From positions 1,339,501-1,403,500 of the forward strand of contig NZ_CP088245.1 of assembly GCF_021117275.1 (NCBI RefSeq): a stretch of 64,000 nucleotides of DNA. The letters are read 5' to 3'. Below the pieces are notes generated by a model that saw only the letters and a list, made by a program, of their open reading frames with translations, was not told where the DNA came from and ran no database searches. The position numbers and the translations under genes are program-made. Within the stretch, counting starts at the first letter, position 1; each line of letters opens with the position of its first letter. The stretch comes from Metabacillus sp. B2-18 (GTDB taxonomy: Bacteria > Bacillota > Bacilli > Bacillales > Bacillaceae). This document shows, piece by piece, positions 4,594-63,502 of this stretch.

Positions 4594-4610
4594 TGTTATA
4601 AAATCTCACA
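4594..4610 (+). promoter_or_regulatory. TnrA/GlnR box upstream of the pyrimidine operon
   Basis: TGTTATAAAATCTCACA matches the TnrA/GlnR consensus TGTNANAWWWTNTNACA at every fixed position. It lies 246 bp before the preT start, so a transcript starting about 50 bp downstream of it would carry a leader of about 200 nt. No good -10 hexamer is seen at the spacing used by the other boxes in this window (around 4641), so the promoter itself is unresolved. Confidence 0.75.
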
Positions 4611-4657
4611 AAAAACTGATAGTTTCTAGTTACCTAGTAAGAAGATAAGAAAATAAT

Positions 4658-4705
4658 CTTACAAAATGCAAAAGAAACAAATAGAACGTTTTAACATTTT
4701 GTAAG
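4658..4705 (+). repeat. 11-bp inverted repeat in the preT upstream region
   Basis: CTTACAAAATG (4658-4668) and CATTTTGTAAG (4695-4705) are perfect inverted copies 26 nt apart. The spacing is too wide and A/T-rich for a terminator, and no T run follows. It looks like a pair of protein-binding half sites, perhaps for the PucR-type regulator encoded downstream or a weak GlnR/TnrA pair. Apart from the TnrA box and this repeat, nothing else stands out in the 384-bp gap 4472-4855. Confidence 0.5.
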
Positions 4706-4855
4706 GTGTCGAACAAAATATAAGAAAGTACAATCATTATATGATGAATACGAAAAGAGAAAGGAGTGAAGGGTAACTACTATTTATTTCGTTAAATACG
4801 GTATAAGAAAAGCTTCCTTAATAATAGAAAAAGTGGGGAATAAGGGGGACTATAG

Positions 4856-10875: not shown

Positions 10876-10928
10876 TGTTAGTAAATATTACAACTTCATG
10901 GTTGTTCCATATATTTCTATTTATAATA
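10876..10928 (+). promoter_or_regulatory. Promoter with TnrA/GlnR box for the PucR-type regulator
   Basis: TGTTAGTAAATATTACA (10876-10892) matches the TnrA/GlnR consensus with one mismatch, T for A at position 7. A perfect -10 box TATAAT lies at 10923-10928, 39 bp from the box centre. A TTGTTC or TGGTTG around 10899-10907 may serve as a poor -35. The arrangement fits TnrA activation from about -51. Confidence 0.7.
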
Positions 10929-10960: not shown

Positions 10961-12577
10961 ATGAAATCATACATCTCAATTAAAAAAATATTAGAGAGAA
11001 AGCACTTTGAAGAAGCTGAAATTGTTGCTGGTGAAAAAGGATTAGGGCATCAGATAAAATGGGTTCATGTTGTAGAGTCTATTCAAATAAGTAATTTATT
11101 AAAGGGAAGCGAACTTATTTTATCTACTGGTCTTGGTTGGAAGGAAGAGCCTGAACAACTTTTTTCTTTTGTGAGACAATTAATCGATTGTCATGCTGCA
11201 GGTCTATGTATTGAAATGAATACTTATATTAAAGATATTCCACAAAACGTAATAGATTTAGCAAATTCTCATCAATTCCCAATTATATTATTCCATAAAG
11301 AAGTGCTATTTGTAGAAATTACTCACGATATTCATTCCCTCATCATCAATAATCAATATCAACTCCTCTCTGATTTAGAGCAATATTCTCAAATATTAAA
11401 TAAAATGATTATAGAAATAGACCAACATAAAGATGTTTTATTATTCCTTCAGAAATATTTAGATGTACAGGTTTTTGCAGTATTTCATTCTGGGAAAATT
11501 GAAAGCTTTCCTAACATGACAGAAAAACTAAAGCAACAGGTGTTGAACAGAAAAAAGGCTGAGAATAATGAAAGATCAATAACTAAGCCTGTCCAGATCT
11601 TTGGTGATACATATGCAGAGATAACGATTGTTTCTACTGGTCGCCTGCTTAATGATTTCGATTCATTAATCTTAGATCGAACAACAACTGTTCTAGGGCA
11701 ATTTTGGTTAAGAGATTTATATGTGAGTGAAAAAAGAATCGATAGTGAAAAGAATTGGCTGACAGATTGGATAGAAGGGGAGCTAAGGGAAGATGTATTA
11801 GTAGAGCAATTATCGAAGACAGAACAATCTTCTCCGTTTACAGGTGCCGTTGTTTGGGTTTGTAAAATAAAAGAGTTAACAGTAAGAACTGTTAACAAGG
11901 AATTTACCTATTTTAAATTAATGACAAGAACGGTGTTTGAACAATTCGGTTTTCATCTGTATTTCGTTGAAACAAAACAACATTTTGTTGTCATTTCATT
12001 GGATAAACGTAAATCAGATAGCTGGAGGCAAAGGATGATAAAAGCTTTTCAAAGAATTCAGCAACATGACTCATATAATAAAAATACTATACAGGAAATA
12101 CCAGTTGGTGTAGGGCAATATGTAAAGAAAAACATCATGAATATAAACAAAAGCTATCTTTCAGCTAAAAAAACTCTTGAACTTCAAGAATTTGTAGCTG
12201 TTGAAAACAAAAGCATATTTTATCAGGATCTACATTTATATCGGATGTTAACACTTCTTAAAAACCAAGGGGATTTGGAAGAAACTGTTTATGAGTATTT
12301 GGAACCAGTTATTGAATATGATAGAAAGTATAATTGTGAACTATTATCGACATTAAAGGTATATATGGAATGTAATGGATCAAAGCAAGAAACATCAAAA
12401 CGATTATTTATTGTAAGACAAACACTTTATCATCGTATTGAAAAATTAGAGGCAATCTTGGGTGGAAACTTTATGAATTCAAAGAAGAGACTTGAGCTTG
12501 AGTTTATGTTAGTTGCATATGATTACTTAACAACTCATAAAAAAGAAATGCATTTGAAATCTCCGGTAAGATTATAG
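10961..12577 (+). CDS. PucR-family transcriptional regulator
   Basis: 538 residues, close to B. subtilis PucR (about 530). The N-terminal PucR domain (residues 1-125) contains KGSELILSTGLGW. The middle part is variable and the C-terminal helix-turn-helix reads NGSKQETSKRLFIVRQTLYHRIEKLE near residue 485-510. Such proteins sense a catabolic intermediate and activate nearby purine or amino-acid genes. Here the neighbours are pyrimidine genes, so uracil or an intermediate of its breakdown is the likely signal (inference). The ATG at 10961 is used because AAAGGTGG precedes it; the frame is open further upstream without a site. Its promoter carries a TnrA-like box. Confidence 0.92.
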   Translation: MKSYISIKKILERKHFEEAEIVAGEKGLGHQIKWVHVVESIQISNLLKGSELILSTGLGWKEEPEQLFSFVRQLIDCHAAGLCIEMNTYIKDIPQNVIDLANSHQFPIILFHKEVLFVEITHDIHSLIINNQYQLLSDLEQYSQILNKMIIEIDQHKDVLLFLQKYLDVQVFAVFHSGKIESFPNMTEKLKQQVLNRKKAENNERSITKPVQIFGDTYAEITIVSTGRLLNDFDSLILDRTTTVLGQFWLRDLYVSEKRIDSEKNWLTDWIEGELREDVLVEQLSKTEQSSPFTGAVVWVCKIKELTVRTVNKEFTYFKLMTRTVFEQFGFHLYFVETKQHFVVISLDKRKSDSWRQRMIKAFQRIQQHDSYNKNTIQEIPVGVGQYVKKNIMNINKSYLSAKKTLELQEFVAVENKSIFYQDLHLYRMLTLLKNQGDLEETVYEYLEPVIEYDRKYNCELLSTLKVYMECNGSKQETSKRLFIVRQTLYHRIEKLEAILGGNFMNSKKRLELEFMLVAYDYLTTHKKEMHLKSPVRL

Positions 12578-16876: not shown

Positions 16877-16928
16877 TGTTAGATTATATAACACGGTCAT
16901 TGCATGCACCTTTTATCCCATTTATACT
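16877..16928 (+). promoter_or_regulatory. Promoter with TnrA/GlnR box for the guanidine-I ABC operon
   Basis: TGTTAGATTATATAACA (16877-16893) matches TGTNANAWWWTNTNACA at all fixed positions and sits within a longer 9-bp inverted repeat (ACCGTGTTA with TAACACGGT). A -10 box TATACT lies at 16923-16928, 38 bp from the box centre. A weak -35, TTGCAT, is at 16900-16905 with a 17-bp spacer. A second possible promoter, TTGATA-17-TACTAA, is at 16929-16957. Confidence 0.75.
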
Positions 16929-16942
16929 TTGATATATCAAAG
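16927..16942 (+). repeat. 16-bp perfect palindrome at the riboswitch promoter
   Basis: CTTTGATATATCAAAG reads the same on both strands. It covers the end of the -10 box of one promoter and the -35 of the other, a position suited to a repressor. The cognate protein is not known. Confidence 0.5.
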
Positions 16943-16965
16943 CAATCATTTTACTAACTTTATAA

Positions 16966-17118
16966 AGGTTCTCTATGATCTGAGAACGAAAAAGCTGCCT
17001 AGGGTTCCGTTGGGTTTACCAAGCTGGTCCGAGAGGGAGCGTATAGAAGCTATCCGTTTCTATATACACGGAAGGACAAAAGCCTGGGAGACGACCTCTC
17101 CTAGGCTTTTTATTTTTC
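16966..17118 (+). promoter_or_regulatory. Guanidine-I riboswitch (ykkC/yxkD) with terminator platform, copy 1
   Basis: Conserved ykkC elements appear in order: CTAGGGTTCCG, GGTCCGAGAG, ATACACGGAAGGA and AAAAGCCTGGGAGA. The last element is also the 5' arm of an intrinsic terminator, since TCTCCTAGGCTTTT follows with a T run to 17118. Ligand binding by the aptamer would use the arm and prevent termination, giving an ON switch. It precedes an ABC importer, and the second copy precedes guanidine-degrading genes, which supports guanidine rather than the ppGpp or PRPP subclasses. The switch and its promoter account for the 485-bp gap 16738-17222. Confidence 0.93.
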
Positions 17119-17222
17119 CTCTTTTTATAATTTGAAAATTCCTAATATTCAACCAAATAAATGGAAGGAGAACTTAAGTAATGTACGACTCTACCAAAAT
17201 TAAAAAAACAGGAGTGAGAAGC

Positions 17223-18227
17223 ATGAAGAAACCATTTAACATACTTTTGTCATTATTGTTTGTCTTTTTATTAGCAGCTTGTGGAAATTCTAGTGAAGAG
17301 GCAAGTGGAGATAGCTCTAAAAGTGAACCAATAAAAATTGGGTTCAGTGCATTACCTAGCTGGTACTTATGGCATCTAGTCGAAGAAAAAGGATTCTTTG
17401 AAAAACATGGTGTTGATGTTGAATTAGTTTATTTTCCGGTTTATGCTGATTCCTTATCTGCCTTAAACACTGGAGAAATTGATGGAAACAGCCAAGCGCT
17501 AATTGACACAATTGCCCCACTTGAAAACGGTATTGAACTTAAATCGATTTTCATAACAGATAACTCAAACGGTGGAGATGGCCTAGTAGCAACAAAGGAT
17601 ATTCAATCTGTTGAAGATTTAAAAGGTAAGAAAGTTGGAACAGAAATTGGTACGATTGAGCATTTCTTTATGTTAACAGCACTTGAACAGGCTGGCTTAA
17701 AGGAATCTGATGTGAATTTTACTAACCTTACTGTTCAAGATGCAGGGACAACATTTATTGCTGGAAATTTAGATGCAGCTGGATTATGGGAGCCATTCCT
17801 TAGTACTGCTGAAACAGAAGGAAATGGACATAAATTAATAACCTCAGCAGAATTCCCGGGTCTTATTGCAGATCTCTTTGTAGCTCGCAAGGAAATCGCA
17901 GAAAACCGTCAAGAAGATCTTGAAAAAATAACGGCTGCTTGGTTTGAAGCAGTGAACTATTATTCAGAAAATGAAGAAGAATCGCTTGAGATTATTGCTG
18001 AAGCTGCCGGTATTACGGTTGATGAACTTGCTATTGGAATGGAAGGGTTTGACTTATTCACACCTGAGCAAAACCTTGCTTCTTTTGAAAAATCAGACAG
18101 CTATAAATCTATTGAATATACGGCCGAGGAAAATGCAAAATTTCTTCAAAAATTAGAGTTTATAAAAGAAATTCCAGATATGACATTATTACTTGACTCT
18201 AGTTTTATTGAAAATAGTCATGAGTAG
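17223..18227 (+). CDS. ABC transporter substrate-binding lipoprotein (SsuA/NrtA type)
   Basis: 334 residues. The N-terminus MKKPFNILLSLLFVFLLAACG is a lipoprotein signal with a LAAC lipobox, so the mature protein is anchored by Cys on the outer face of the membrane. The rest is an SBP of the nitrate, sulfonate and taurine group (FSALPSWYLWHLVEEKGFFEKHGVDVEL). It is the first gene behind the guanidine-I riboswitch, so guanidine or a guanidino compound is the inferred ligand. The ATG at 17223 has AGGAGTGAGAAGC before it. An in-frame ATG at 17181 with GGAGAAC would add 14 residues and cannot be excluded. Confidence 0.9.
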   Translation: MKKPFNILLSLLFVFLLAACGNSSEEASGDSSKSEPIKIGFSALPSWYLWHLVEEKGFFEKHGVDVELVYFPVYADSLSALNTGEIDGNSQALIDTIAPLENGIELKSIFITDNSNGGDGLVATKDIQSVEDLKGKKVGTEIGTIEHFFMLTALEQAGLKESDVNFTNLTVQDAGTTFIAGNLDAAGLWEPFLSTAETEGNGHKLITSAEFPGLIADLFVARKEIAENRQEDLEKITAAWFEAVNYYSENEEESLEIIAEAAGITVDELAIGMEGFDLFTPEQNLASFEKSDSYKSIEYTAEENAKFLQKLEFIKEIPDMTLLLDSSFIENSHE

Positions 18228-18248
18228 AACCGGAAAGAGGTGACAAAT

Positions 18249-19067
18249 ATGGAGACTGCAAAAAAGAAAGGTCACTTGAGAACATTATTTCGAATTCATG
18301 AGGAAATTCCAAAGTCTTGGTATTTAGTCGGAATAGGATCGGCATTTATAGGACTTTTTCTATTCTGGTATCTATTGAGCATTATGGGAGTTGTAAAGGA
18401 AGTGTTTCTACCTTCACCATTTGTCGTGGTTGAATCGCTCTTTACGTCCCTTGCTAATTCTGATTTTTGGAACCAAATAGGCATTAGTGTTTACCGTGTT
18501 TTTATGGGATTTTTATTAGCTTGTCTCATTGGCATTCCACTAGGAATTTTTGCTGGGACGTTTAAAATCGCGGAATCGATTGTTGTACCTATGTCTGAAT
18601 TTATCCGGTATATGCCGGCAGCAGCATTTATTCCACTTATTATGGTATGGGCTGGGATCGGTGAAACTGCTAAGATTCTTGTTATTTTTATAGGATGTTT
18701 CTTTCAGTTGTTGCTAATGGTAGCGGAGGACACTAGCAGAGTGAATAAAGATTTGTTATCTGCATCTTACACATTAGGAGCAAAACGAGGTCAAGTCATT
18801 TCGAGAGTAATCATACCAGCGATTTTACCAAAGTTAATGGTAACCATGCGTCTTATTATGGGATGGGCTTGGACGTATTTAGTTGTAGCAGAGCTTGTAG
18901 CAGCAAACAGTGGCCTTGGTTATACGATTATGAAGGCACAACGTTTTTTAGATACTGAGTTAATTTTTGTTGGAATCATTGTAATTGGTTTATTAGGTTT
19001 AGTTATCGATCGCTGCTTTGCACTTTTAACGAAAAAATTATTCCCTTGGGCAGAAGGAGGTCAATAG
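18249..19067 (+). CDS. ABC transporter permease (SsuC type)
   Basis: 272 residues with about six membrane helices. The cytoplasmic EAA loop reads LLSASYTLGAKRGQVISRVIIPAILPKL near residues 170-198, where the ATPase docks. It resembles SsuC, TauC and NrtB. It lies 21 bp after the binding protein and 1 bp before the ATPase gene, so the three form one importer under the guanidine-I switch. ATG 18249 is used, with GAAAGAGGTG before it; the GTG at 18240 is part of that site. Confidence 0.92.
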   Translation: METAKKKGHLRTLFRIHEEIPKSWYLVGIGSAFIGLFLFWYLLSIMGVVKEVFLPSPFVVVESLFTSLANSDFWNQIGISVYRVFMGFLLACLIGIPLGIFAGTFKIAESIVVPMSEFIRYMPAAAFIPLIMVWAGIGETAKILVIFIGCFFQLLLMVAEDTSRVNKDLLSASYTLGAKRGQVISRVIIPAILPKLMVTMRLIMGWAWTYLVVAELVAANSGLGYTIMKAQRFLDTELIFVGIIVIGLLGLVIDRCFALLTKKLFPWAEGGQ

Positions 19068-19068
19068 A

Positions 19069-19863
19069 ATGTTAAATGCAGTAAAACAAGCAGAGCCACT
19101 TCTACAATCGGAATTAGAGATTAGTATAAAAGGACTATCAAAGGTGTATCAAACAAAAGCAGGAAGCTTCCAAGCACTAGAAGATGTGTCAATGTATGTG
19201 AAAAATGAGGAGTTTGTTTCCATACTAGGTCCTTCTGGTTGTGGTAAATCTACAATTCTACGGATATTAGCAGGATTAGAAGATTCTACGAGTGGAAGTG
19301 TAAAGGTTTCAGATCAAGAAGTAGTAGGACCTAGCGTAAACAGAGGGATGGTGTTTCAATCTTATACACTATTTCCATGGTTAAATGTTCGCGACAATAT
19401 TGAATTTGGCCTAAAACTAAAGGGAATGGGTTCAAAAGAACGAAAGGAAATCTCTGATCGATATTTAGAATTAGTAGGTCTTGAACGGTTTGCTAATTCA
19501 TATGGAAAAGAGCTCTCGGGAGGTATGAAGCAAAGGGTGGCAATTGCTAGATCATTGGCTAATAATCCAGAGGTTTTGTTAATGGATGAGCCGTTTGGTG
19601 CGCTCGACGCACAAACAAAGCAATCAATGCAGCAGTTATTACTTGATATTTGGAAAAAGGAAAAGACTACTATTGTTTTTATTACACATGATATTGATGA
19701 GGCTATTTTTTTATCGCAACGAATTTATGTGATGCAAGCAAGACCAGGGAAAATTATCGAGGAAATTGATGCAGACCTACACCTGTTTAAAGAGGGTGAA
19801 TTAGTGGAAGTGGATCAATTTATGAAGCTGAAGAAGCATATTGTCTCGTTATTAAAGCATTAA
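19069..19863 (+). CDS. ABC transporter ATP-binding protein (SsuB type)
   Basis: 264 residues. Walker A GPSGCGKST is near residue 55, the Q loop at VFQSYTLFPW, the ABC signature LSGGMKQRVAIARSL near 145, Walker B VLLMDEPFGALD and the switch His in FITHDIDEA. It energises import through the preceding permease. The RBS AAGGAGG overlaps the end of the permease gene, indicating translational coupling. A terminator follows within 30 bp, closing the operon. The family matches NrtCD/SsuB importers that are often found under guanidine-I riboswitches. Confidence 0.95.
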   Translation: MLNAVKQAEPLLQSELEISIKGLSKVYQTKAGSFQALEDVSMYVKNEEFVSILGPSGCGKSTILRILAGLEDSTSGSVKVSDQEVVGPSVNRGMVFQSYTLFPWLNVRDNIEFGLKLKGMGSKERKEISDRYLELVGLERFANSYGKELSGGMKQRVAIARSLANNPEVLLMDEPFGALDAQTKQSMQQLLLDIWKKEKTTIVFITHDIDEAIFLSQRIYVMQARPGKIIEEIDADLHLFKEGELVEVDQFMKLKKHIVSLLKH

Positions 19864-19888
19864 ATGGTTACTTTTTACATGGTGTGGT

Positions 19889-19926
19889 AAAGGCAGTGGT
19901 GCTTGAATGGTGCTACTGCCTTTTAG
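19889..19926 (+). terminator. Intrinsic terminator of the ABC operon
   Basis: AAAGGCAGT pairs with ACTGCCTTT in a 9-bp stem, with further pairing of the loop flanks, and is followed by TTAGTTT. Confidence 0.75.
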
Positions 19927-19984
19927 TTTACAAATGCGATTCTTTACCGAAACGAAGTATTAATAGCGTGTAGGAGGAACAGTT

Positions 19985-20037
19985 TGTCACAAAATCTAAC
20001 GCACTATTTGAAATGTAAGATTTTGTGACATTATAAT
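19985..20037 (+). promoter_or_regulatory. Promoter with two TnrA/GlnR boxes for the APC permease
   Basis: Box 1, TGTCACAAAATCTAACG (19985-20001), misses the consensus only at its last base. Box 2, TGTAAGATTTTGTGACA (20014-20030), matches fully. The promoter is TTGAAA (20008-20013), an 18-bp spacer and TATAAT (20032-20037). Box 1 is centred 39 bp before the -10, while box 2 lies between -35 and -10. Box 1 suits activation and box 2 repression, as if TnrA and GlnR, or high and low occupancy, had opposite effects. The two boxes together create a 13-bp inverted repeat. Confidence 0.75.
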
Positions 20038-20137
20038 AGTACACAAGTAAAGACATTATTTATTGCTTTAAAGTATAGTAGTGAAATTGTAGGTTTTTCG
20101 ATCTGAATATTCAGATAAAACGGGAGAGGGTTGAAGA

Positions 20138-21487
20138 ATGACACAAACAACTGAATTCAAAAAATCTCTAAATTTATTTGGTGTTGTTTTCCTTGGACTT
20201 GCCTGGATGACACCAATGATCTTTTTTACAGTGTACGGTGTTGCGTTTGAAGCAGCGGGTGGAATGCTTGCTGCTGCTTATGTTGTAGCATTTATAGCGA
20301 TTTTTTTTACAGCTTATAGCTATAGCAGAATGGTAAAGGCTTATCCGATTTCTGGCTCAGCCTATACCTATACGAAGAAAGCAATCAATCCAAAGATGGG
20401 GTTTCTTGTTGGCTGGGCTCTTTTGCTTGATTATATTGTTTCACCAATTATTGCTTGTTTAACATTTGGCCTATTCTTAAATGCTCAGTTTCCGAGTATA
20501 CCAGTTTATGTATGGATTGTCTTGTTAAATGTCATTTTGGCATTTGTGAATATTATTGGGATTAAATCAGTAGCAAGAGTAAGTGGGTTTTCTGTTATTT
20601 TTCAGATCATCTTTATTATCTTTTTTTGTGCCTTTGTAACAAAGGATATACTTGTTGGCGGAGACGGATCAGGTTTATTTTCTTTTCAACCGTTCTTTTC
20701 CAGTGACTTCTCCGTTTCCACGATTTTCTCAGGAGCAGCACTTATCTGCTTTTGTTTTTTAGGATTTGATGCGGTAACCACAATGGCAGAGGAAACAGTT
20801 AATCCTCGTAAAACAATACCTAAAGCAATTTTTCTAATCGTTATTATTGCTGCAGTGTTATACATTTCTATCTCTTATTTAACACAACTAGCCTATCCTA
20901 ACTTTATGTTTGAAAATGTTGATACAGCTTCTTTTGAGCTTATTCAAATGGTTGGTGGAAATCTATTAAGTGCTCTTTTTACAACCGTATTAATTGTGGC
21001 AACCTTTACTCAAGGAGTTTCATCCGTTACAAGTGTAACGAGGTTTTTATTTGCATTAGGGAGAGAGTCAATCTTGCCGAACAAAGTTTTTGGTTATTTA
21101 CACCCTAAATATAAAACACCCGTGATTAACATTATCTTTGTGACAATCATTTCGTTTTTCTCCATAGCTATTGATTTAGATACAGCTGTAACATTTGTTA
21201 GCTTTGGTGCCCTTACGGCATTTACGTTCGTCAATTTATCTGTTATTTCACATTATTATGTAAAAAGTAAAATGCGGTCTGCTAAACAAACTTTTCTTTA
21301 TCTCATTTTTCCTTTCGTAGGTGCTTGTTTTATTGGATGGTTATTAACTTTGTTAGAAGCACAAACACTCTTAATTGGAATTGCTTGGATTGTAATGGGA
21401 TTTATTTACATTGGAATCCGAACAAGCATGTTTAAAAAGCCGATTTCTACTTTAAAGGAAGGAAAGGTAGCAATTGAAAATAGATAA
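20138..21487 (+). CDS. APC-superfamily amino acid or amine permease
   Basis: 449 residues with about 12 membrane helices. The APC start GVVFLGLAWMTPMIFFTVYG and the loop PISGSAYTYTKKAINPKMGFLVGWALLLDYI near residue 70 are characteristic. The next stretch, ICFCFLGFDAVTTMAEETVNPRKTIPKAI near residue 210, marks the putrescine and amino-acid branch (PuuP-like). The substrate is unknown. It is monocistronic between the two guanidine-I operons but has no riboswitch of its own; its promoter carries two TnrA/GlnR boxes instead. The start ATG follows GGGAGAGGG. Confidence 0.9.
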   Translation: MTQTTEFKKSLNLFGVVFLGLAWMTPMIFFTVYGVAFEAAGGMLAAAYVVAFIAIFFTAYSYSRMVKAYPISGSAYTYTKKAINPKMGFLVGWALLLDYIVSPIIACLTFGLFLNAQFPSIPVYVWIVLLNVILAFVNIIGIKSVARVSGFSVIFQIIFIIFFCAFVTKDILVGGDGSGLFSFQPFFSSDFSVSTIFSGAALICFCFLGFDAVTTMAEETVNPRKTIPKAIFLIVIIAAVLYISISYLTQLAYPNFMFENVDTASFELIQMVGGNLLSALFTTVLIVATFTQGVSSVTSVTRFLFALGRESILPNKVFGYLHPKYKTPVINIIFVTIISFFSIAIDLDTAVTFVSFGALTAFTFVNLSVISHYYVKSKMRSAKQTFLYLIFPFVGACFIGWLLTLLEAQTLLIGIAWIVMGFIYIGIRTSMFKKPISTLKEGKVAIENR

Positions 21488-21500
21488 TTTTTAAAAAGTG

Positions 21501-21553
21501 TGTTAGAAAATCTGACATAGTGTTTGGAAGGTTGTAATAGGGTGGTCTATAAT
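21501..21553 (+). promoter_or_regulatory. Promoter with TnrA/GlnR box for the guanidine-degradation operon
   Basis: TGTTAGAAAATCTGACA (21501-21517) matches the TnrA/GlnR consensus at every fixed position. The promoter TTGGAA-18-TATAAT (-35 at 21524-21529, -10 at 21548-21553) follows, with 39 bp from box centre to -10. That is the classic place for TnrA activation under nitrogen limitation. The transcript would begin near 21560, shortly before the riboswitch. Confidence 0.82.
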
Positions 21554-21577: not shown

Positions 21578-21757
21578 AGCTTCTCAGATGAGAAGGAAAA
21601 AGCTGTCTAGGGTTCCGTTCTTGTTGCGAATATCCCCTCATTCAATACAAGGAGTCTGGTCCGAGAGAGAGCGTATAGCTGATACCGCATGTTAGCTATA
21701 TACACGGAGGGATAAAAGCCTGGGAGACGAAAATCTCCCAGGCTTTTATCTTTTTTA
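21578..21757 (+). promoter_or_regulatory. Guanidine-I riboswitch (ykkC/yxkD) with terminator platform, copy 2
   Basis: The ykkC core is complete: CTAGGGTTCCG, GGTCCGAGAG, ATACACGGAGGGATAAAAGCC and CTGGGAGA. AAAGCCTGGGAGA pairs perfectly with TCTCCCAGGCTTT to form the terminator, followed by a T-rich run. The stem-loop between the first two conserved blocks is about 30 nt longer than in copy 1. An ON switch controlling guanidine catabolic genes is expected. The promoter and switch occupy the gap between the permease and the first DUF1989 gene. Confidence 0.95.
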
Positions 21758-21795
21758 TTTTCTCTACTCGATATTATTCAAAGGAGGAATTCTTT

Positions 21796-22539
21796 ATGAT
21801 AAATAGCATTTGGAATAAAACAATCCCAGCAGGTGGGAAATGGTCAGGAACAATTGGAAAAGGGAAACTTGTAAAATTTACAGCTTTAGGTAAGGGGGCA
21901 AATCTTTCAACAATCATGTATCATGCAAATCAGTTAACAGAGCGTTATAACATGCCGGATACGTTAAAAGCTCAACATACTTCTCACCTAACAAAAGGTC
22001 ATATGCTAATGAGTGATAACGGGCGGGTGTTAACGAGTATAGTGGAAGATAGTCTAGGCTGGCATGACAGTATTTCAGGATATACGTCACGTAAGGAAAC
22101 AGATGAGAAATACGGGATCACAACCTATCAAGAGCTTAGGAATAATTGGCTAAGAAGCGGTGAAGAAAATTTTGCTGTAGAGCTTGTTAGAAATGGATTA
22201 GGTGTACGTGATTTAGTTCCGGTATTAAACCTATTTTCAAAGGTATTTTGTGATGAAAATGGCGATATGCACTATGTCGAGGACCATTGCAAAGAAGGAG
22301 CAACTGTTACATTAAGAACTGAGATGGATACATTATTCATTTTCTCGAATACACCAAATCCATTAGATCTTCGTAACGAATATCCTTCAGTACCAATTCA
22401 AATAGAAGTATTCGATGCAGAGCCAGTTAAAGATGATGATGTGTGTGTGAACTTCCGTCCGGAAAACAGAAGAGCTTTTGAAAATACATGGGAATACCAC
22501 ACACTACTTAGTGATTCAAAATCAGTTGTACTGAAATAA
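21796..22539 (+). CDS. DUF1989 protein, carboxyguanidine deiminase subunit (urea carboxylase-associated protein 1)
   Basis: 247 residues of the DUF1989 family, the larger of the two urea carboxylase-associated proteins. Together they form the CgdAB enzyme, which deiminates carboxyguanidine to allophanate. At the place where its partner has DTCGRHD and GGAC, this subunit reads DSLGWHDSISGYTS, so the metal-binding cysteines seem lost. It may therefore be the non-catalytic half of a heteromer (inference). It is the first gene behind the second guanidine-I switch, with AAAGGAGG before ATG, and is separated from its partner by 39 bp. Confidence 0.87.
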   Translation: MINSIWNKTIPAGGKWSGTIGKGKLVKFTALGKGANLSTIMYHANQLTERYNMPDTLKAQHTSHLTKGHMLMSDNGRVLTSIVEDSLGWHDSISGYTSRKETDEKYGITTYQELRNNWLRSGEENFAVELVRNGLGVRDLVPVLNLFSKVFCDENGDMHYVEDHCKEGATVTLRTEMDTLFIFSNTPNPLDLRNEYPSVPIQIEVFDAEPVKDDDVCVNFRPENRRAFENTWEYHTLLSDSKSVVLK

Positions 22540-22578: not shown

Positions 22579-23229
22579 ATGGCGGTTTTAAATTATACAG
22601 AAAGCTCACGAAAAGTAGAAGAAGCAATTTATGATAAAGTGATTCCTTCTGGAGAAGGCTGGATGCATGAGCTAGAGCCTGGTCAGGTTTTAAGAATAGT
22701 AGATTTAGAGGGAAATCAAGCAGCGGATACCCTGTTCTATCATGCTGAAGACCCAGAAGATCATTACAGTGCAGTCGCGACGATGCTAGGTCAAAAAAAT
22801 ATTTATTTATCAACAGGAACAGTTTTACGTTCTGAATCAAATAAAGAGCTTCTTAAAATTGTGGCGGATACTTGTGGGCGTCATGATACATTGGGAGGAG
22901 CTTGTTCAGCACAAAGCAATACAGTGCGATATGCACATGATACATTGCCGATGCATAATTGCCGAGATACGTTTATGCTTCAGCTATCTAAGTTTGATGA
23001 AAGATATACGAAGCGTGATCTAGCACCTAATATTAACTTCTTCATGAATGTACCAGTAACACCTGATGGCGGTCTAACATTCGCAGACGGTGTATCAGCA
23101 CCTGGTCGTTATGTTGAGGTGCAATCAATTGTTAAGACTATTGCTCTAATTAGTAATTGCCCTCAACTAAACAATCCATGTAATGCGTATAACCCTACAC
23201 CAATACGTGTGTTAATTTGGGATAAATAA
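22579..23229 (+). CDS. DUF1989 protein, carboxyguanidine deiminase subunit (urea carboxylase-associated protein 2)
   Basis: 216 residues, the smaller DUF1989 partner. It keeps the expected metal site: [18 protein letters not shown] near residue 98-115 and HNCRDTF near 133, with the start of the fold at [15 protein letters not shown]. It is probably the catalytic, metal-bearing half that removes ammonia from carboxyguanidine, giving allophanate for the hydrolase encoded at the end of the operon. It is preceded by AAGGAGG and followed by the carboxylase gene 55 bp later. Confidence 0.88.
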
Positions 23230-23284: not shown

Positions 23285-26200
23285 ATGTTTAAAAAAGTAC
23301 TCATCGCCAATCGCGGTGCCATTGCAGTAAGAATTGAACGGACACTAAAAAAGCTAGGCATTCAATCGGTAGCGGTCTATACGAAAGCTGATCAAGACAG
23401 CCTACATGTTGATTATGCTGATGAAGCGGTTCTCATTGGAGAGGGACCGGCAAAAGACAGTTATTTAAATGCTGAACTTATTCTTAAAACAGCTATTGAA
23501 ACAGGAGCAGAAGCGATTCATCCTGGTTATGGCTTTTTAAGTGAAAATGCTGAATTTGCTAGAATGTGTCAAAAAAAGGGAATTGCCTTTATTGGGCCTA
23601 CACCAGAGCAAATGGAGATGTTTGGTCTAAAGCATTCTGCACGCGAAATCGCTGAAAAAGCTGGTGTACCTATGTTATCTGGAACGGATTTAATTGACTC
23701 TCTTGAAACAGCATTAAATCATGCAAATAAAATTGGCTACCCTGTCATTTTAAAAAGTACAGCAGGCGGTGGCGGAATTGGAATGCGTGTTTGTGACAAT
23801 GAGGATGCGCTCAAAGCGGCCTATGATGGTGTTCGTCATTTAGCGGAAACGAATTTTAACAACGCTGGCTTATTTTTGGAGAAATACATTGAGAAAGCAC
23901 GACATGTTGAGGTGCAAATCTTCGGTAATCGTTTTGGGGAGGTAGTGACATTAGGAGAGCGTGATTGCTCGATTCAACGTCGTAACCAAAAGGTTATTGA
24001 AGAAAGCCCAGCTCCTAAGCTTTCAGAAGATGTTCGCCAAAAGATGTTTGCTGCTGCAAAGAGTTTAGCTGAAGAGGTAGGCTATCGCAGTGCAGGTACA
24101 GTTGAGTTTTTATATGACCCCGAAAGCTGTGGTTTTTACTTCTTAGAGGTAAATACACGCTTACAGGTTGAGCATGGAGTAACTGAAGAGGTATTAGGTT
24201 TAGATTTAGTAGAGTGGATGGTAAAGGAAGCAGCAGATAAGTTGAAGAATTTACAGACCCTTGTTTCTGAACCAAAAGGACACAGTATCCAAGCACGAAT
24301 TTATGCAGAAGATTGCTTTCATGATTTCCGTCCAAGTGCGGGGCAGTTAGACCAGGTGATTTTATCAGATCTTGCTCGCAATGAAACATGGATTCGTGAT
24401 GGAATAACTGTTACATCTCTTTATGATCCAATGCTTGTAAAAATTATCGTTCATGGTAAAGACAGACAAGATGCAATAGGCAAATTGATTCAGGCTTTAA
24501 GTGAAACGCGAATGTATGGAATCACAACGAATCTTCAGTATTTACAAGCATTGTTACATGAAGAGGAATGTGTTGCTGGTAATGTGTACACTAGAATGTT
24601 AAATAGCTTTAAAGCAGTTGAAAATGCACTTGAAGTACTAGATGGAGGAGTACAAACAACAATCCAAGATTGGCCTGGACGAAAAGGGTATTGGGATGTT
24701 GGAGTACCACCTTGTGGACCGATGGATCCCTTATCCTTTCGAATCGGAAATAAGCTTTTAGGAAATAACTACGATGCACCTGGCTTGGAGTTTACATTAC
24801 GAGGAGGGTCTTATCAATTCCGAAATGAGATGTGGTTCTGTTTAACGGGTGCTGATATGGAAGCGAAGCTGGATGGTGAAGATGTTTCCTTATATAAACC
24901 GATTTTTGCTGAAAAGGGTCAGGTCTTATCTTTTGGTGAAGCAAAGGTTGGAATGAGAGCTTATATGCTAGTAGCAGGCGGATTCGATATGCCAAAAATA
25001 TTAGGCAGCTCTTCTACATTTACACTCGGAAACTTTGGTGGACATGGTGGTAGAGCACTTAGAACAGGGGACGTTCTATCTGTTCATAACGATGTTATCC
25101 CTCCTGCTACAAAGGCACTTCCAATAGAATATCAACCAAAAGTTAACAACACATGGACAATTGGTGTTATTCCAGGACCGCATTGTACTGAGGAGTTTTT
25201 GCAACCGAATTATTTAACACAACTTACCGAAACAAAATGGGAAATTCATTTTAACAGCTCGCGCACTGGAGTCCGCTTAATTGGTCCAAAACCATTATGG
25301 ACACGAGAAGACGGAGGAGAAGCAGGTCTTCATCCATCGAACATTCATGACAATGCATACGCAATCGGGACACTTGACTTAACTGGTGATATGCCAATTT
25401 TACTTGGTCCGGATGGTCCGAGTCTAGGTGGATTTGTTTGTCCTGTCACTACTGCTTCAGCAGAATTTTGGAAAATTGGTCAGCTGCATCCTGGTGATAC
25501 TGTTCAATTTAAATTAATGACTCTAGAAGAAGCAGCTCGTTTGCGAAAGCTACAGGATGAAAATCTTCATGCAATCGGAGAAGCTAATTTCGCTCAGTTA
25601 AGTGAAGTTAAGCTTGCTGACCCTGAAGTTGAGATGACATCTGCTTACCCTGTTTTAGCTTTTGAAAAGGATCGTCAAATTCCAATTACAATCCGCTGCA
25701 GCGGAGATGAAAACCTCCTTGTAGAATACGGGGATATGGAGCTTGATTTACAATTACGATTCCAAGCACATGTCTTAATGGATGCTATTCAAAAGAGTGA
25801 GGATTTTCCTGTATTGGACCTAACACCAGGAATTCGTTCATTACAAATTCATATTGATGCTTCAAGAATAACGGTGAAAGAAGCTTGTCAAAAAGTATTA
25901 GAAATTGATCGTAACTTACCACCACTAGAATCGATTCAGGTGCCATCAAGAATTGTCCGACTACCGTTATCTTGGAATGATCCATCAGTACAATTAGCTA
26001 CAGAACGCTATCAGCAAAATGTTCGACAGGATGCACCTTGGTGTCCGGATAACCTTGAATTCATTCGAAGAATAAATGGATTAGAAAGTATTGAAGATGT
26101 GAAAAATGTAGTTTTTGATGCTAATTATCTTGTTCTTGGATTAGGTGATGTTTATTTAGGGGCTCCTGTGGCAACGCCAATTGATCCACGACACCGATTA

Positions 26201-26917
26201 GTTACAACGAAGTACAACCCAGCTAGAACGTGGACACCAGAAAACGCTGTTGGAATTGGTGGTGCATATATGTGTGTATATGGAATGGAAGGACCTGGTG
26301 GCTATCAATTTGTTGGTCGTACAATTCAGATGTGGAATAAGCTTCGTTCAACTGAAAGCTTTGAACCAGGTAAACCATGGTTATTACGTTTCTTTGATCA
26401 AATTCAATTTTATCCAGTTGAAGCCGATGAATTGCTACAACTTCGTGAAGATGTACTTCGTGGTCGTTTTGAAGTTGATATTACTGAAACAACATTCGAT
26501 CTCGGGGAATACTTGAAGTTCCAAGATGACATAAAAGAAAGTGCAGAGTTGTTTAAACAACGTCAACAAGCAGCCTTCCATGCAGAACGTGAAAGATGGA
26601 AGGAGCAAGGAATTGCAGAACATGTTTCAGAAGAAAATTCAATGGGTTCGATTGAAGATGATGAAATTCCAGAAGGCTCAATCCCTGTTAATTGTTCTAT
26701 GCCAGGGAGTGTATGGAAAGTGCTTGTTTCTCCAGGTCAGCAGGTAAAAAAAGGTGATGTACTTATTATAGAAGAAAGTATGAAAATGGAATTTCCTCAA
26801 GCGGCTCCTTGTGATGGAGAAATTGCTGAAGTATATGTAAAACCTGGAGATTCAGTTCATGCAGGTCAATTGATTGTCAGTATCTTTGAAGAAAAAAAGG
26901 TAGGTGTTGCACAATGA
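23285..26917 (+). CDS. Biotin-dependent guanidine carboxylase (urea carboxylase family)
   Basis: 1210 residues. The biotin carboxylase part covers about 1-450 (start KVLIANRGAIAVR, ATP loop STAGGGGIGMRV, EVNTRLQVEHGVTEE). A KipA/KipI-like carboxyltransferase region follows from about 460 to 1010 (PPCGPMDPLSFRIGN, GPDGPSLGGF, EGPGGYQFVGRT). The biotinyl domain at the C-terminus has ESMKMEF near 1166. The enzyme carboxylates guanidine or urea with ATP and bicarbonate. The riboswitch and the deiminase genes favour guanidine. The active-site residue said to separate urea from guanidine enzymes cannot be placed with certainty by eye. It overlaps the next gene by 4 bp. Confidence 0.92.
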   Translation: MFKKVLIANRGAIAVRIERTLKKLGIQSVAVYTKADQDSLHVDYADEAVLIGEGPAKDSYLNAELILKTAIETGAEAIHPGYGFLSENAEFARMCQKKGIAFIGPTPEQMEMFGLKHSAREIAEKAGVPMLSGTDLIDSLETALNHANKIGYPVILKSTAGGGGIGMRVCDNEDALKAAYDGVRHLAETNFNNAGLFLEKYIEKARHVEVQIFGNRFGEVVTLGERDCSIQRRNQKVIEESPAPKLSEDVRQKMFAAAKSLAEEVGYRSAGTVEFLYDPESCGFYFLEVNTRLQVEHGVTEEVLGLDLVEWMVKEAADKLKNLQTLVSEPKGHSIQARIYAEDCFHDFRPSAGQLDQVILSDLARNETWIRDGITVTSLYDPMLVKIIVHGKDRQDAIGKLIQALSETRMYGITTNLQYLQALLHEEECVAGNVYTRMLNSFKAVENALEVLDGGVQTTIQDWPGRKGYWDVGVPPCGPMDPLSFRIGNKLLGNNYDAPGLEFTLRGGSYQFRNEMWFCLTGADMEAKLDGEDVSLYKPIFAEKGQVLSFGEAKVGMRAYMLVAGGFDMPKILGSSSTFTLGNFGGHGGRALRTGDVLSVHNDVIPPATKALPIEYQPKVNNTWTIGVIPGPHCTEEFLQPNYLTQLTETKWEIHFNSSRTGVRLIGPKPLWTREDGGEAGLHPSNIHDNAYAIGTLDLTGDMPILLGPDGPSLGGFVCPVTTASAEFWKIGQLHPGDTVQFKLMTLEEAARLRKLQDENLHAIGEANFAQLSEVKLADPEVEMTSAYPVLAFEKDRQIPITIRCSGDENLLVEYGDMELDLQLRFQAHVLMDAIQKSEDFPVLDLTPGIRSLQIHIDASRITVKEACQKVLEIDRNLPPLESIQVPSRIVRLPLSWNDPSVQLATERYQQNVRQDAPWCPDNLEFIRRINGLESIEDVKNVVFDANYLVLGLGDVYLGAPVATPIDPRHRLVTTKYNPARTWTPENAVGIGGAYMCVYGMEGPGGYQFVGRTIQMWNKLRSTESFEPGKPWLLRFFDQIQFYPVEADELLQLREDVLRGRFEVDITETTFDLGEYLKFQDDIKESAELFKQRQQAAFHAERERWKEQGIAEHVSEENSMGSIEDDEIPEGSIPVNCSMPGSVWKVLVSPGQQVKKGDVLIIEESMKMEFPQAAPCDGEIAEVYVKPGDSVHAGQLIVSIFEEKKVGVAQ

Positions 26918-28659
26918 ATAAGATAGAAATTCCTGTGAAATTAACACTTAGCTGGTTACGTAAACAATATGAAACGAGAGCATTGAAGCCGGAAGAAGTT
27001 ATTGAAGAAATCATTCAACGTTCCCGTGATGATGAGGAAATGAACATTTGGATTACAGCACCTCAAATGGAACATATTCAACCTTATCTTAACCGTCTTT
27101 CAGCGCTAGATTTTGAGTCTTCACCGTTATGGGGGATCCCGTTTGCTATAAAAGATAATATTGACCTAGCAAATGTTCCAACAACAGCTGGGTGTGCAGA
27201 ATATAGTTATACACCTACTGAACATGCTTCAGTCGTTGAGAGATTAATAGCTGCAGGTGCCATTCCGGTTGGGAAAACAAATTTAGATCAATTTGCTACA
27301 GGGTTAGTAGGAACGCGAAGCCCTTATGGGGAAACACATAATTCGCTTCGTCCAGAGCTGATAAGCGGTGGCTCCAGCTCTGGATCTGCTATTTCAGTTG
27401 CAAGAGGGCAGGTTGCTTTCTCTCTGGGTACAGATACAGCTGGTTCTGGTCGTGTGCCTGCTGCACTGAATGATTTAGTAGGTTTAAAGCCGAGCCTAGG
27501 AGCATGGCCGACAAAGGGTGTTGTGCCAGCATGTGCCAGTCTTGATTGTGTTACAGTATTTTCACATAGTTTAGAAGAAGCGTATAAAGTTGATGCTGTT
27601 GCTAGAGGTTTAGATCAAGAAGATCCTTGGTCACGTGATCTTGCCATTCCACAAGCTAAGCTTCCTAAGAAAATCTGTTTACCAAAAGATGATTTAACGT
27701 TTTATGGTCCCTTTGCTAAGGAATATAAAAAAGCTTGGGATGGAGCTGTTAAACAAATCAAACAATTAAAAATCCAAATTGAATACATTGACTATCAATT
27801 CTTTGCAGAAGCAGCGGCGATTCTTTATGATGGACCGTTTGTAGCGGAACGATGGGCTGATCTAGGCGGATTTATTACTGAACATCCAGAAGTAACTTTC
27901 CCGGTAACGGAAAAAGTCCTTCGTTCAGGTTCACAACCACAACATGATGCTGCATCTGTATTTCATTCCATGCACAAGTTACAAGAATTTAAATTAAAGA
28001 ATAGCAAACTACTACAGGATGCTGTTCTTGTTACGCCAACTGCAGGTGGAACATGGACTCGTGATCAAGTCCGTGAAGACCCGATTAAAACAAATAGTGA
28101 TATGGGGCTATATACAAATCACTGTAATTTGTTAGATTTGTGTGCGGTTGCCGTGCAAGCCGGAGAAGCAGCCGTAAACCTGCCTTTTGGAATTACATTC
28201 TTTGCATTGTCTCAGAATGAAGGATTGATTGAAGGAGCTGCTGAGACATTTGTTAATAAAATGCCCGCAAAACAAGAAACCACTTTAGTTGCAGTATGTG
28301 GTTTGCATATGAGAGGCTTTCCGTTAGAAAAGCAAATGCTTGAATTCGGTGCGACCTTTGTCCGTGAAGCTGTGACAGCTGAAAAATACCAATTTGTGAA
28401 ACTAGCTACAGAACCTGCAAAACCTGGATTGATTAAGAAACCAACAGGTGGAAAGGCAATTGAACTAGAAATCTGGGAAATGCCGCTTTCCTCATTTGGT
28501 GCCTTTGCTGCGTTAATTCCTGCGCCACTGGGAATAGGGAAAGTTGAGCTACAAGATGGTGTAGAAGTACCGGGGTTTATTTGTGAAGGATACGCATCTG
28601 AAGAGGCAGAAGACATTTCAGATGCTGGAAGTTGGAGAAAAATACTATCAGGAATTTAA
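26914..28659 (+). CDS. atzF: Allophanate hydrolase
   Basis: 581 residues, two domains. The amidase domain (about 1-455) has the catalytic Lys in IPFAIKDNID near residue 78. The signature GGSSSGSAISVARG follows, and the nucleophile region GTDTAGSGRVPAALN. The C-terminal domain (about 470-581) resembles the part of allophanate hydrolase that completes decarboxylation. It splits allophanate to ammonia and CO2, the last step of guanidine or urea degradation. Its ATG overlaps the carboxylase stop (ATGA), a coupled arrangement. A terminator ends the operon. Confidence 0.95.
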   Translation: MNKIEIPVKLTLSWLRKQYETRALKPEEVIEEIIQRSRDDEEMNIWITAPQMEHIQPYLNRLSALDFESSPLWGIPFAIKDNIDLANVPTTAGCAEYSYTPTEHASVVERLIAAGAIPVGKTNLDQFATGLVGTRSPYGETHNSLRPELISGGSSSGSAISVARGQVAFSLGTDTAGSGRVPAALNDLVGLKPSLGAWPTKGVVPACASLDCVTVFSHSLEEAYKVDAVARGLDQEDPWSRDLAIPQAKLPKKICLPKDDLTFYGPFAKEYKKAWDGAVKQIKQLKIQIEYIDYQFFAEAAAILYDGPFVAERWADLGGFITEHPEVTFPVTEKVLRSGSQPQHDAASVFHSMHKLQEFKLKNSKLLQDAVLVTPTAGGTWTRDQVREDPIKTNSDMGLYTNHCNLLDLCAVAVQAGEAAVNLPFGITFFALSQNEGLIEGAAETFVNKMPAKQETTLVAVCGLHMRGFPLEKQMLEFGATFVREAVTAEKYQFVKLATEPAKPGLIKKPTGGKAIELEIWEMPLSSFGAFAALIPAPLGIGKVELQDGVEVPGFICEGYASEEAEDISDAGSWRKILSGI

Positions 28660-59987: not shown

Positions 59988-60052
59988 AACCAACTTACCC
60001 AGCAAATTATTTGGGTTTTTCCTGGTTAACAAATAGAAGTGGAGGGAAAATA

Positions 60053-60943
60053 ATGTTTAAAAGAATAAATAAATTGCCAATTGAACTTCCTATACCTGAA
60101 CACGGTGATATGAATGCTGCTGCTGCAGTACAAGAGCTCTTGGGTGGCAAGTTTGGGGAGATGTCTACCTTAAATAACTATATGTTTCAGTCTTTTAACT
60201 TCAGAAATAAAAAAAAGCTAAAACCATTCTATGAGTTAGTAGCTAGCATTACAGCAGAAGAAATTGGTCATGTAGAACTTGTTTCTAATACAATTAATTT
60301 GTTATCGGTAGGTAATACGTTTCCGGGGGATCCGGATATCACTCCACTCCAAAATGGGAAGGATGCTAGAAACACCCACCACTTTATCTCTACTGCTCAA
60401 ACGGCTATACCAGGTGATTCGATGGGAAGACCTTGGACTGGTGATAATGTATTTAATAGTGGTAATCTGGTTTTAGATTTAACACATAACTTTTTTCTAG
60501 AAATTGGTGCACGTACACATAAAATGAGAGTTTATGAGATGACTGATAACCCAGTTGCTCGAGAAATGATTGGGTATTTACTTGTTCGTGGAGGAACACA
60601 TGTCCTCGCCTATGCGAAAGCAATCGAAATTGTGACAGGGGTAGACTTAACGAAAATGCTTCCAGTTCCAAATCTTGATAACTCAAAATTTGATTATGCT
60701 AGGCCATTCATAGAAAAAGGCTTAAGCAATGTGCTTTACACATGGAGCGAAACAGAATACAGGGATATTGGAATGATTTGGAAAGGAACTAATCCGGAAA
60801 ATGGGCATCCACTGGAAGTGAAAATTGGTGCTCCTGAGGGGGGACCCATACCAGACTTAGAGGAATTACCTGAAGAATTTGCTCCTGGTATTACTAGGGA
60901 CGATTATGAATTAATCAAAAAACGTCTAATGGAAAAGTTATAA
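60053..60943 (+). CDS. Manganese catalase
   Basis: 296 residues of the ferritin-like, di-manganese catalase family. Metal ligands come from the Glu in LGGKFGEMSTLNNYMFQ (near 36), the Glu/His pair in TAEEIGHVELVS (near 72-76) and later Glu and His in NFFLEIGARTHKMRVYEM and RGGTHVLAYAKAIE (near 150-190). It breaks down hydrogen peroxide without heme. The C-terminus is Pro/Gly-rich (EGGPIPDLEELPEEF). The start ATG follows GTGGAGGG; the in-frame codon at 60011 lacks a site. It may be spore-related, like YdbD/CotJC, but no sigma-K promoter was seen. Confidence 0.93.
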   Translation: MFKRINKLPIELPIPEHGDMNAAAAVQELLGGKFGEMSTLNNYMFQSFNFRNKKKLKPFYELVASITAEEIGHVELVSNTINLLSVGNTFPGDPDITPLQNGKDARNTHHFISTAQTAIPGDSMGRPWTGDNVFNSGNLVLDLTHNFFLEIGARTHKMRVYEMTDNPVAREMIGYLLVRGGTHVLAYAKAIEIVTGVDLTKMLPVPNLDNSKFDYARPFIEKGLSNVLYTWSETEYRDIGMIWKGTNPENGHPLEVKIGAPEGGPIPDLEELPEEFAPGITRDDYELIKKRLMEKL

Positions 60944-60982
60944 TGAATTTTGCAGGAAATATTAATGAAATTTGGATTTCTT

Positions 60983-61016
60983 TAGCGAACGGCAGCAGCC
61001 ACTGTTCGCTATTTTC
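60983..61016 (+). terminator. Intrinsic terminator of the Mn catalase gene
   Basis: TAGCGAAC and GTTCGCTA form a perfect 8-bp stem followed by TTTTC. The remainder of the gap 61017-61276 shows nothing recognisable. Confidence 0.8.
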
Positions 61017-61276
61017 ATTCATACTTCAACAATCCAATTTGACACTTTGATAGAATCAGTTTGAAGTCGTCTTATGACAGTTTTTCCTTGTTTTCAATTC
61101 ATTTAGGGCAACCATAGCCAATTTTATACCACTAGGTGTTACTAATTGTTCATGGTCGAAGTACGCATTATAGAATTTTAGGATTCATAATTATATAATT
61201 ACATAGTAAATGGGTGGTGAATCTTGGTGCTAACTCTAAACTGACTTTCACCAACAATCTAATTCTATAACACCCA

Positions 61277-61308
61277 AAAGGGCTGAAACGAAAGTGTTCC
61301 AACCCTTT
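61277..61308 (-). terminator. Probable terminator of the sugar ABC operon
   Basis: On the minus strand AAAGGGTTGGAAC pairs with GTTTCAGCCCTTT (G-U and two mismatched positions) just after the stop codon; the T run is short. Confidence 0.5.
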
Positions 61309-61317
61309 AAAAAATAC

Positions 61318-62652: not shown

Positions 62653-62749
62653 TTTTCTTCCCCCTTGTTTATCATTTTTAAAAGCCTAGAGTTTTTTCAT
62701 AACAGAATTAATTCGATAGATTCACCTCCCTTAAGTTTGCTAACTACAG

Positions 62750-62763
62750 GATAAGCGCTTACA
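62750..62763 (-). promoter_or_regulatory. cre-like or LacI-family operator
   Basis: On the minus strand TGTAAGCGCTTATC, with the central palindrome ATAAGCGCTTA, matches the cre consensus at 12 of 14 positions. It lies between the YesL gene and the binding-protein gene, suggesting a separate sugar- or CcpA-controlled promoter for the latter. Confidence 0.55.
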
Positions 62764-62835
62764 AATTAACAATTATGCATACTCATAGCTGAAAGTATTT
62801 TCACTTAGGTAGAAAATAATAGAAACCTCCGCACT

Positions 62836-63468: not shown

Positions 63469-63502
63469 ATCAATACTCCACCTCTTTAGATCCGAAATAG
63501 GT

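Follow-up and report, generated by a model that had tools for sequence, protein, structure and literature searches.

Candidate TnrA/GlnR boxes precede guanidine-I riboswitches of import and breakdown operons in Metabacillus sp. B2-18 and other Bacillales

Are the genes with which a bacterium takes up and breaks down guanidine controlled by guanidine only, or also by the nitrogen status of the cell? This question is raised by a stretch of 64,000 nucleotides (the window) from the 5.47-Mb genome of Metabacillus sp. B2-18 (here labelled G000; positions 1,339,501 to 1,403,500 of NZ_CP088245.1), in which two operons led by guanidine-I riboswitches, one for an ATP-binding cassette (ABC) importer and one for breakdown by a urea/guanidine carboxylase and an allophanate hydrolase, flank the gene of an APC-superfamily permease. 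A first-pass annotation had assigned both operons, the permease and the gene of a PucR-type regulator to a single nitrogen-limitation regulon with TnrA/GlnR boxes at a fixed distance from the promoters. The observation holds, and it extends far beyond the window. As a nitrogen-regulator box mostly precedes the guanidine riboswitch, guanidine import and breakdown genes, here and in many relatives, probably require both nitrogen scarcity and guanidine for their expression.

Boxes and promoter spacing in the window

Window and genome were scanned for the box consensus TGTNANAWWWTNTNACA (short form TGTNA-N7-TNACA), with the reversed pattern serving as control. The full matches already annotated at 16877, 20014 and 21501 were recovered together with a further one at 4594, and the sites at 19985 and 10876 indeed miss the consensus by one base. 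Altogether, the window holds seven matches with at most one mismatch versus 1.57 expected, a number reached in none of 100 shuffles. A one-mismatch match at 62154 looks like chance and was set aside, as it falls into a gene that belongs to a perfect repeat. Across the genome, 19 full matches compare with five for the reversed pattern, four of the 19 lying in a 17-kb part of the window. Other full matches are found before tnrA and before three genes that, judged by eye, encode ammonium transporters (in one case behind a glnK-like gene), and further ones near purine-type transport or breakdown genes (by Pfam, a symporter and an amidohydrolase). When one mismatch is allowed, 151 matches are scarcely above the 116 obtained with the reversed pattern, hence the sites at 19985 and 10876 rest on conservation. 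A CodY-box scan was dropped, giving fewer matches than expected (seven with at most three mismatches versus 18) and none in the permease leader.

Candidate regulators are encoded in the same genome. TnrA (G000:C1:1529475) matches the solved TnrA structure 4r24 with an E value of 3.9e-27, a second TnrA-like protein (G000:C1:2950835-2951128) is 65% identical to the first, with a full box at 2951622 some 0.5 kb away from its gene, and a third, GlnR-like member of the family (G000:C1:2074541) shows 38% identity to TnrA. Consequently, both features expected of a TnrA/GlnR regulon, the regulator in the genome and the box in the promoter region, are found, with site 19985 deviating by one base.

TnrA activates when nitrogen is short, and its activator sites are usually centred near –50. 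Counted from the centre of the box to where the predicted –10 element begins, the spacing of the boxes at 16877, 19985, 21501 and 10876 fits this position, whereas box 20014 lies only 10 bp from its predicted –10, over the promoter core, and the activator position is not seen for the preT-side box at 4594, which was not counted as activator site for want of a good –10 at the fixed distance. The earlier spacings of 38, 39 and 39 bp for 16877, 19985 and 21501 hold, while the 39 bp given for 10876 has to be corrected to 38 bp. Like spacing is also present elsewhere in the genome, at the boxes of tnrA (38 bp), the symporter gene (39 bp) and the amidohydrolase gene (38 bp). That chance would not produce this regularity, as had been proposed, is supported across genomes: in 40 of 70 sequence clusters a –10-like hexamer lies 37–39 bp past the centre of the box, compared with six clusters at most for any other 3-bp bin when bins are taken without overlap and outside the box; within the box, whose letters themselves resemble a –10, up to 17 are reached.

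The box at guanidine-I riboswitches of other genomes

For comparison, two sets of loci were combined. The named set comprises the best 80 named loci of a carboxylase scan that matched more stretches, is thus chosen by similarity, and yielded 110 guanidine-I riboswitches with a covariance model built for this analysis. From the window's own family, for which matches were listed for 80 genomes under stricter filters (18 of them without match), 30 loci, the two riboswitches of the window and 72 further stretches (11 of them scoring under the Rfam cut-off) were added. The total of 214 riboswitches was reduced to 208 distinct ones by removal of six exact duplicates, the import operons of three family genomes that are counted as named loci L017-L019. 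Operon classes were assigned by tblastn of the downstream DNA against the window proteins and one SMR exporter, and lineages of named loci by hand from record names, the group outside Paenibacillaceae including several Bacillales families. The main count considers exact TGTNA-N7-TNACA matches up to 220 nucleotides (nt) upstream of the aptamer.

In a first look, allowing one mismatch within 200 nt, 95 of 142 riboswitches had a box versus two of 142 with the reversed pattern. In the main count, the exact box precedes the riboswitch in 109 of 118 Bacillales import/degradation operons, as compared with none of six outgroup cases, none of 47 SMR exporters and two of 37 others; the reversed pattern occurs once upstream of the 208 aptamers. 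By group, the box is present in 33 of 39 named Bacillales cases outside Paenibacillaceae, 61 of 62 in Paenibacillaceae and 15 of 17 in the own family (window's two included). Within the own family, boxed import operons contrast with all remaining riboswitches (15/17 versus 1/81, Fisher p 1e-14), and this persists when counting sequence clusters (10/12 versus 1/23, p 4e-6). As baseline, in 68 Bacillales loci the box is found in 25 of 6008 random windows and in eight of 448 regions upstream of other open reading frames (ORFs). Own-family SMR exporters show a one-mismatch box in 11 of 45 cases and the exact box in none of the 45.

The two boxed cases among the others are L188 and L055. In L188 (genome G071), a guanidine-I-type match of 48.9 bits, below the cut-off, and a full TnrA box are followed by the gene of an NCS1-type permease. 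In L055 (4880-6916), a reverse-transcriptase-like ORF, recognized by eye, follows the boxed riboswitch and parts it from the permease, possibly a retroelement insertion in the leader. A single box between two divergent guanidine-I riboswitches, one leading the permease and one the breakdown operon, may serve both in the Paenibacillus loci L022, L024, L025, L029, L030, L032, L033, L035, L036, L037 and L038. Boxes at ykkC of the Bacillus subtilis type were rejected as support, since none has the exact consensus and the commonest candidate in Bacillus-type genomes, TGAAAGAAAATCTTACA, overlaps the apparent end of the preceding coding sequence as read by eye.

The position of the box differs between lineages. 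A –10 at 37–40 bp is predicted in 14 of 15 boxed cases of the own family and 27 of 33 of the other named Bacillales outside Paenibacillaceae (together 41/48), compared with 14 of 61 in Paenibacillaceae, where the box centre is within 50 nt of the aptamer in 33 of 61 cases and some boxes cover the likely –10 as judged by eye. The regulator set differs as well. In a search of 30 chosen genomes, which did not cover L065, a TnrA-like protein (at least 62% identity over at least 101 of 112 residues) is encoded in all 14 genomes outside Paenibacillaceae and outgroups, whereas none of the 12 Paenibacillaceae genomes searched gave a full-length TnrA match, four having a shorter TnrA-like protein and eight only a GlnR-like one. 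Architecture thus tends to follow the regulator, a link that is correlative. Separating GlnR from TnrA sites by a flanking A and T failed, as these are found in 23 of 41 activator-position boxes, five of 21 near-aptamer boxes and seven of 29 other boxes.

Proposed two-input control and its alternatives

We consider it highly probable that the boxes are binding sites of TnrA (GlnR in Paenibacillaceae) which gate transcription initiation, while guanidine gates read-through; binding, direction of effect and the resulting AND logic are what we infer here from sequence. When nitrogen becomes short, TnrA would be freed from feedback-inhibited glutamine synthetase (FBI-GS), would bind some 50 bp before the transcription start and thereby activate both riboswitch operons, for the ABC importer and for carboxylase and allophanate hydrolase, as well as the APC permease gene. 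An inhibition of DNA binding by TnrA through FBI-GS is described in the accessible part of PMC9948412. Transcripts of the two riboswitch operons would then stop at the terminator overlapping the aptamer unless guanidine is bound, so that box and riboswitch in series could form an AND gate of nitrogen shortage and guanidine. In Paenibacillaceae, GlnR at a box just upstream of the aptamer, as found in about half of the boxed cases, may achieve the same logic by repressing under nitrogen excess. Regarding plain activation by TnrA, as originally suggested, four boxes of the window are at activator distance, but the second permease box over the promoter core does not conform, and this pairing of an activator-distance box with one over the promoter core indicates that activation by itself does not fully describe the permease promoter.

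Several observations weigh against TnrA/GlnR gating. The exact box is missing in six of the 39 named cases outside Paenibacillaceae (two each in L020 and L053, one each in L059 and L065), in L043 of the Paenibacillaceae and in L123 and L135 of the own family. Several of these nine have near-boxes; both L053 cases have none, and the L053 genome still encodes a TnrA-like protein. In the genome of strain B2-18, a –10-like hexamer at 37–40 bp, in either orientation, accompanies only five of the 15 remaining full matches, the three ammonium-transporter boxes not being among them. Besides, promoters were predicted from sequence, not mapped, and GlnR and TnrA share a site that the flanking bases did not resolve. 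In B. subtilis, finally, TnrA was bound at ykkC in chromatin immunoprecipitation on chip, as far as the consulted part of PMC4475385 goes, with no effect on expression in the conditions tested there.

Among the alternatives, GlnR acting alone by repression under nitrogen excess, with the –50 position being incidental, appears unlikely. A GlnR-like protein is encoded, the motif is common to GlnR (PMC3412718, in the part available), and a box on or close to the promoter core, or directly before the aptamer, is seen with 20014 and with 33 of the 61 boxed Paenibacillaceae cases. However, outside Paenibacillaceae TnrA is present in the genomes searched and 41 of 48 boxed cases have the –10 at activator distance, which is also displayed by the genome's own tnrA promoter. 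Still less probable is that the operons serve the use of urea instead of guanidine and the nitrogen control is that of urea amidolyase. The carboxylase does match the urea-carboxylase model, yet the operons are led by two guanidine-I riboswitches over the curated cut-off, and published guanidine-assimilation operons, according to the portion of PMC12186494 at hand, pair importer and carboxylase genes with such riboswitches. Least credible of all is an origin of the boxes as AT-rich palindromes by chance, or their recognition by a different regulator, for example the PucR-type protein. Although near-matches are frequent genome-wide, the exact box is found in 94 of 101 named Bacillales import cases as compared with the above eight of 448 regions before other ORFs of these loci, tnrA and the ammonium-transporter-like genes likewise have full matches in front of them, and in genome G057 the PucR orthologue is encoded beside pyrimidine genes with no guanidine-I riboswitch found there. 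TnrA/GlnR gating in series with the riboswitch is therefore preferred.

Compared with the B. subtilis TnrA regulon (PMC4475385, accessible part), the system has in common the 17-bp box and the regulator, with pucR being a target there and TnrA occupying the ykkC promoter region in vivo; in contrast, the consulted text names no guanidine import or breakdown operon, and for the lack of a TnrA effect at ykkC it proposes conditions yet to be identified. With known guanidine-I (ykkC) assimilation operons the loci share aptamer, overlapping terminator, importer, carboxylase and allophanate hydrolase genes, whereas the nitrogen-regulator input is an added part, GlnR, NtcA and "nitrogen limitation" being absent from the main text of the 2025 review as far as available (PMC12186494). 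Dual control of nif by GlnR in Paenibacillus polymyxa (PMC6191146, part available) resembles the permease in having two boxes per promoter, in nif an upstream activating and a downstream repressing one, but the nif sites are 118 bp apart with the second after the start site, while the permease boxes are separated by 29 bp with the second over the promoter core. A transcription factor and riboswitch in series are also described, in the accessible part of PMC12452182, for branched-chain amino acid operons (T-box and guanidine-type riboswitches with TnrA, CodY and CcpA), which differ in containing biosynthetic and not guanidine-assimilation genes. A link between TnrA/GlnR and guanidine assimilation was not found in the literature that could be consulted, and an earlier report is possible, mostly in subscription papers.

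Permease, pyrimidine genes and the use of guanidine

Unlike the two operons, the APC permease has a leader without riboswitch. Its boxes at 19985 and 20014 keep the 29-bp spacing in all four same-genus genomes with a close orthologue and such a leader (G000, G054, G058 and G068, the permease frame being split in two in G054), whereas in seven other orthologues of at least 69% identity the leader riboswitch is preceded by a box with at most one mismatch. Among 56 permease loci (window and two relatives included), the exact box is present within 450 nt in 53 and a riboswitch, detected by short motifs, in 32, with the caveat that the box in divergent loci may serve the other gene. Hence, nitrogen control of the permease looks more constant than guanidine control. 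The three loci without box are L020 (near-box), L055 (inserted ORF) and L061 (truncated where the contig ends). Two boxes 29 bp apart also occur in a promoter on the minus strand of L007 (2047-2092), at 38 and 9 bp from the –10; this promoter leads toward a 49-residue ORF without Pfam match.

For the guanidine operons and the permease, box sequence, spacing, conservation and presence of TnrA support the nitrogen-limitation control proposed in the first-pass annotation. The PucR-type gene, however, fits elsewhere. Its neighbours, which look like genes of reductive pyrimidine breakdown, comprise preA, dihydropyrimidinase, aminotransferase and semialdehyde dehydrogenase genes over the cut-offs as well as a preT-like gene and an NCS1 permease gene below them. 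An exact TGTNA-N7-TNACA box with a –10 at 38–39 bp precedes all five orthologues of at least 63% identity (window's included), and a sixth with 40% identity carries an exact box at another upstream position. In G057, about 5 kb separate the orthologues of pucR and preT, and no guanidine-I riboswitch was found in this genome; membership of the PucR-type gene in a guanidine regulon was rejected on these grounds. It probably belongs to the adjacent pyrimidine-breakdown module, so that neighbours and the G057 arrangement point to two nitrogen-scavenging modules side by side, probably under one regulator, and not to one guanidine regulon. Upstream of the preT-like gene, at 4650-4710, an inverted repeat CTTACAAAATG...CATTTTGTAAG is recognizable in five of seven aligned relatives and is a candidate operator of the PucR-type regulator.

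The features of the window are compiled in the table. Both aptamers exceed the RF00442 cut-off and have an expression platform with terminator, as required for guanidine-I riboswitches, and carboxylase, urea-amidolyase-associated proteins (UAAP1 and UAAP2) and allophanate hydrolase are co-located as in the guanidine carboxylase pathway. Within the best 80 named loci, the nearest carboxylase loci include those of M. halosaccharovorans and M. niabensis (86% identity). For the binding protein and the permease, matches to solved structures are remote. At the far end of the window, from 59997 to 64000 and onward up to G000:C1:1418389, four copies of a 4,723-bp unit follow each other head to tail without mismatch, representing a recent amplification or an assembly artefact; by eye, its ORFs encode a manganese-catalase-like protein, an ABC sugar-binding protein and ABC permeases.

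Table. Boxes, predicted promoter elements, riboswitches and genes of the guanidine locus and its upstream neighbours (window positions).
Feature	Position	Strand	Remarks
TnrA/GlnR box upstream of preT-like gene	4594..4610	+	further full match; no good –10 at fixed distance
TnrA/GlnR box, PucR-type regulator gene	10876..10892	+	one mismatch to TGTNANAWWWTNTNACA; exact TGTNA-N7-TNACA
Predicted –10 TATAAT, PucR-type gene	10922	+	38 bp past centre of box 10876
PucR-type regulator	10961..12577	+	ATG preceded by ribosome-binding site; AdeR, PmfR and CdaR models, all below cut-off
TnrA/GlnR box TGTTAGATTATATAACA, ABC-importer operon	16877..16893	+	full match; predicted activator position
Predicted –10 TATACT, ABC-importer operon	16923..16928	+	38 bp past centre of box 16877; best –10 at distance 38
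Guanidine-I riboswitch aptamer 1	16988..17092	+	Rfam RF00442, 84.7 bits versus cut-off 63; leads ABC importer
Terminator hairpin with U run	17078..17117	+	overlaps 3' end of aptamer 1; fold –21.5 kcal/mol, z –4.84
ABC substrate-binding protein, SsuA family	17223..18227	+	importer operon gene 1; TIGR01728 198.5 bits, cut-off 163.5
ABC permease	18240..19067	+	top matches SaoP/TauC/SsuC, each below cut-off
ABC ATP-binding protein	19069..19863	+	top matches SaoA and taurine ATP-binding subunit; below cut-off
TnrA/GlnR box 1, APC permease	19985..20001	+	one mismatch; predicted activator position
TnrA/GlnR box 2, APC permease	20014..20030	+	full match; over promoter core, 29 bp from box 1
Predicted –10 TATAAT, APC permease	20032..20037	+	39 bp past centre of box 19985
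APC-superfamily permease, candidate guanidine importer	20138..21487	+	family matches below cut-off; leader without riboswitch
TnrA/GlnR box TGTTAGAAAATCTGACA, breakdown operon	21501..21517	+	full match; predicted activator position
Predicted –10 TATAAT, breakdown operon	21548..21553	+	39 bp past centre of box 21501
Guanidine-I riboswitch aptamer 2	21596..21728	+	Rfam RF00442, 85.2 bits versus cut-off 63; leads breakdown operon
Terminator hairpin	21707..21760	+	overlaps 3' end of aptamer 2; fold –33.4 kcal/mol, z –6.86
UAAP1 and UAAP2	21796-22539 and 22579-23229	+	TIGR03425 and TIGR03424, over cut-off
Urea/guanidine carboxylase	23285..26917	+	TIGR02712 1762.8 bits, over cut-off; matches 3va7/5i8i urea amidolyase
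Allophanate hydrolase	26914..28659	+	TIGR02713, over cut-off

To what extent guanidine is a stressor or a nutrient for bacteria is still an open matter according to the accessible part of PMC12186494. The box on import and breakdown operons, with no exact box at the 47 SMR exporter riboswitches, is evidence that guanidine is treated as a nitrogen source. A wider reading, tentative and in our judgement slightly less than evenly balanced, is that Bacillales have split one guanidine riboswitch by a second input, with use as food placed behind a nitrogen-regulator box, export of the poison left without, and the permease often freed from the riboswitch and under nitrogen control alone. If so, a nitrogen-starved cell would make a scouting importer before guanidine enters, and the first molecules would then open the riboswitch-locked operons; the binding of TnrA without effect at B. 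subtilis ykkC, as described in the part of PMC4475385 consulted, might be of a similar kind, its effect being masked by the riboswitch in the absence of guanidine. The presence of the box offers a simple genome signature separating nutrient from export use, and the arrangement a directly testable AND gate of transcription factor and riboswitch in series.

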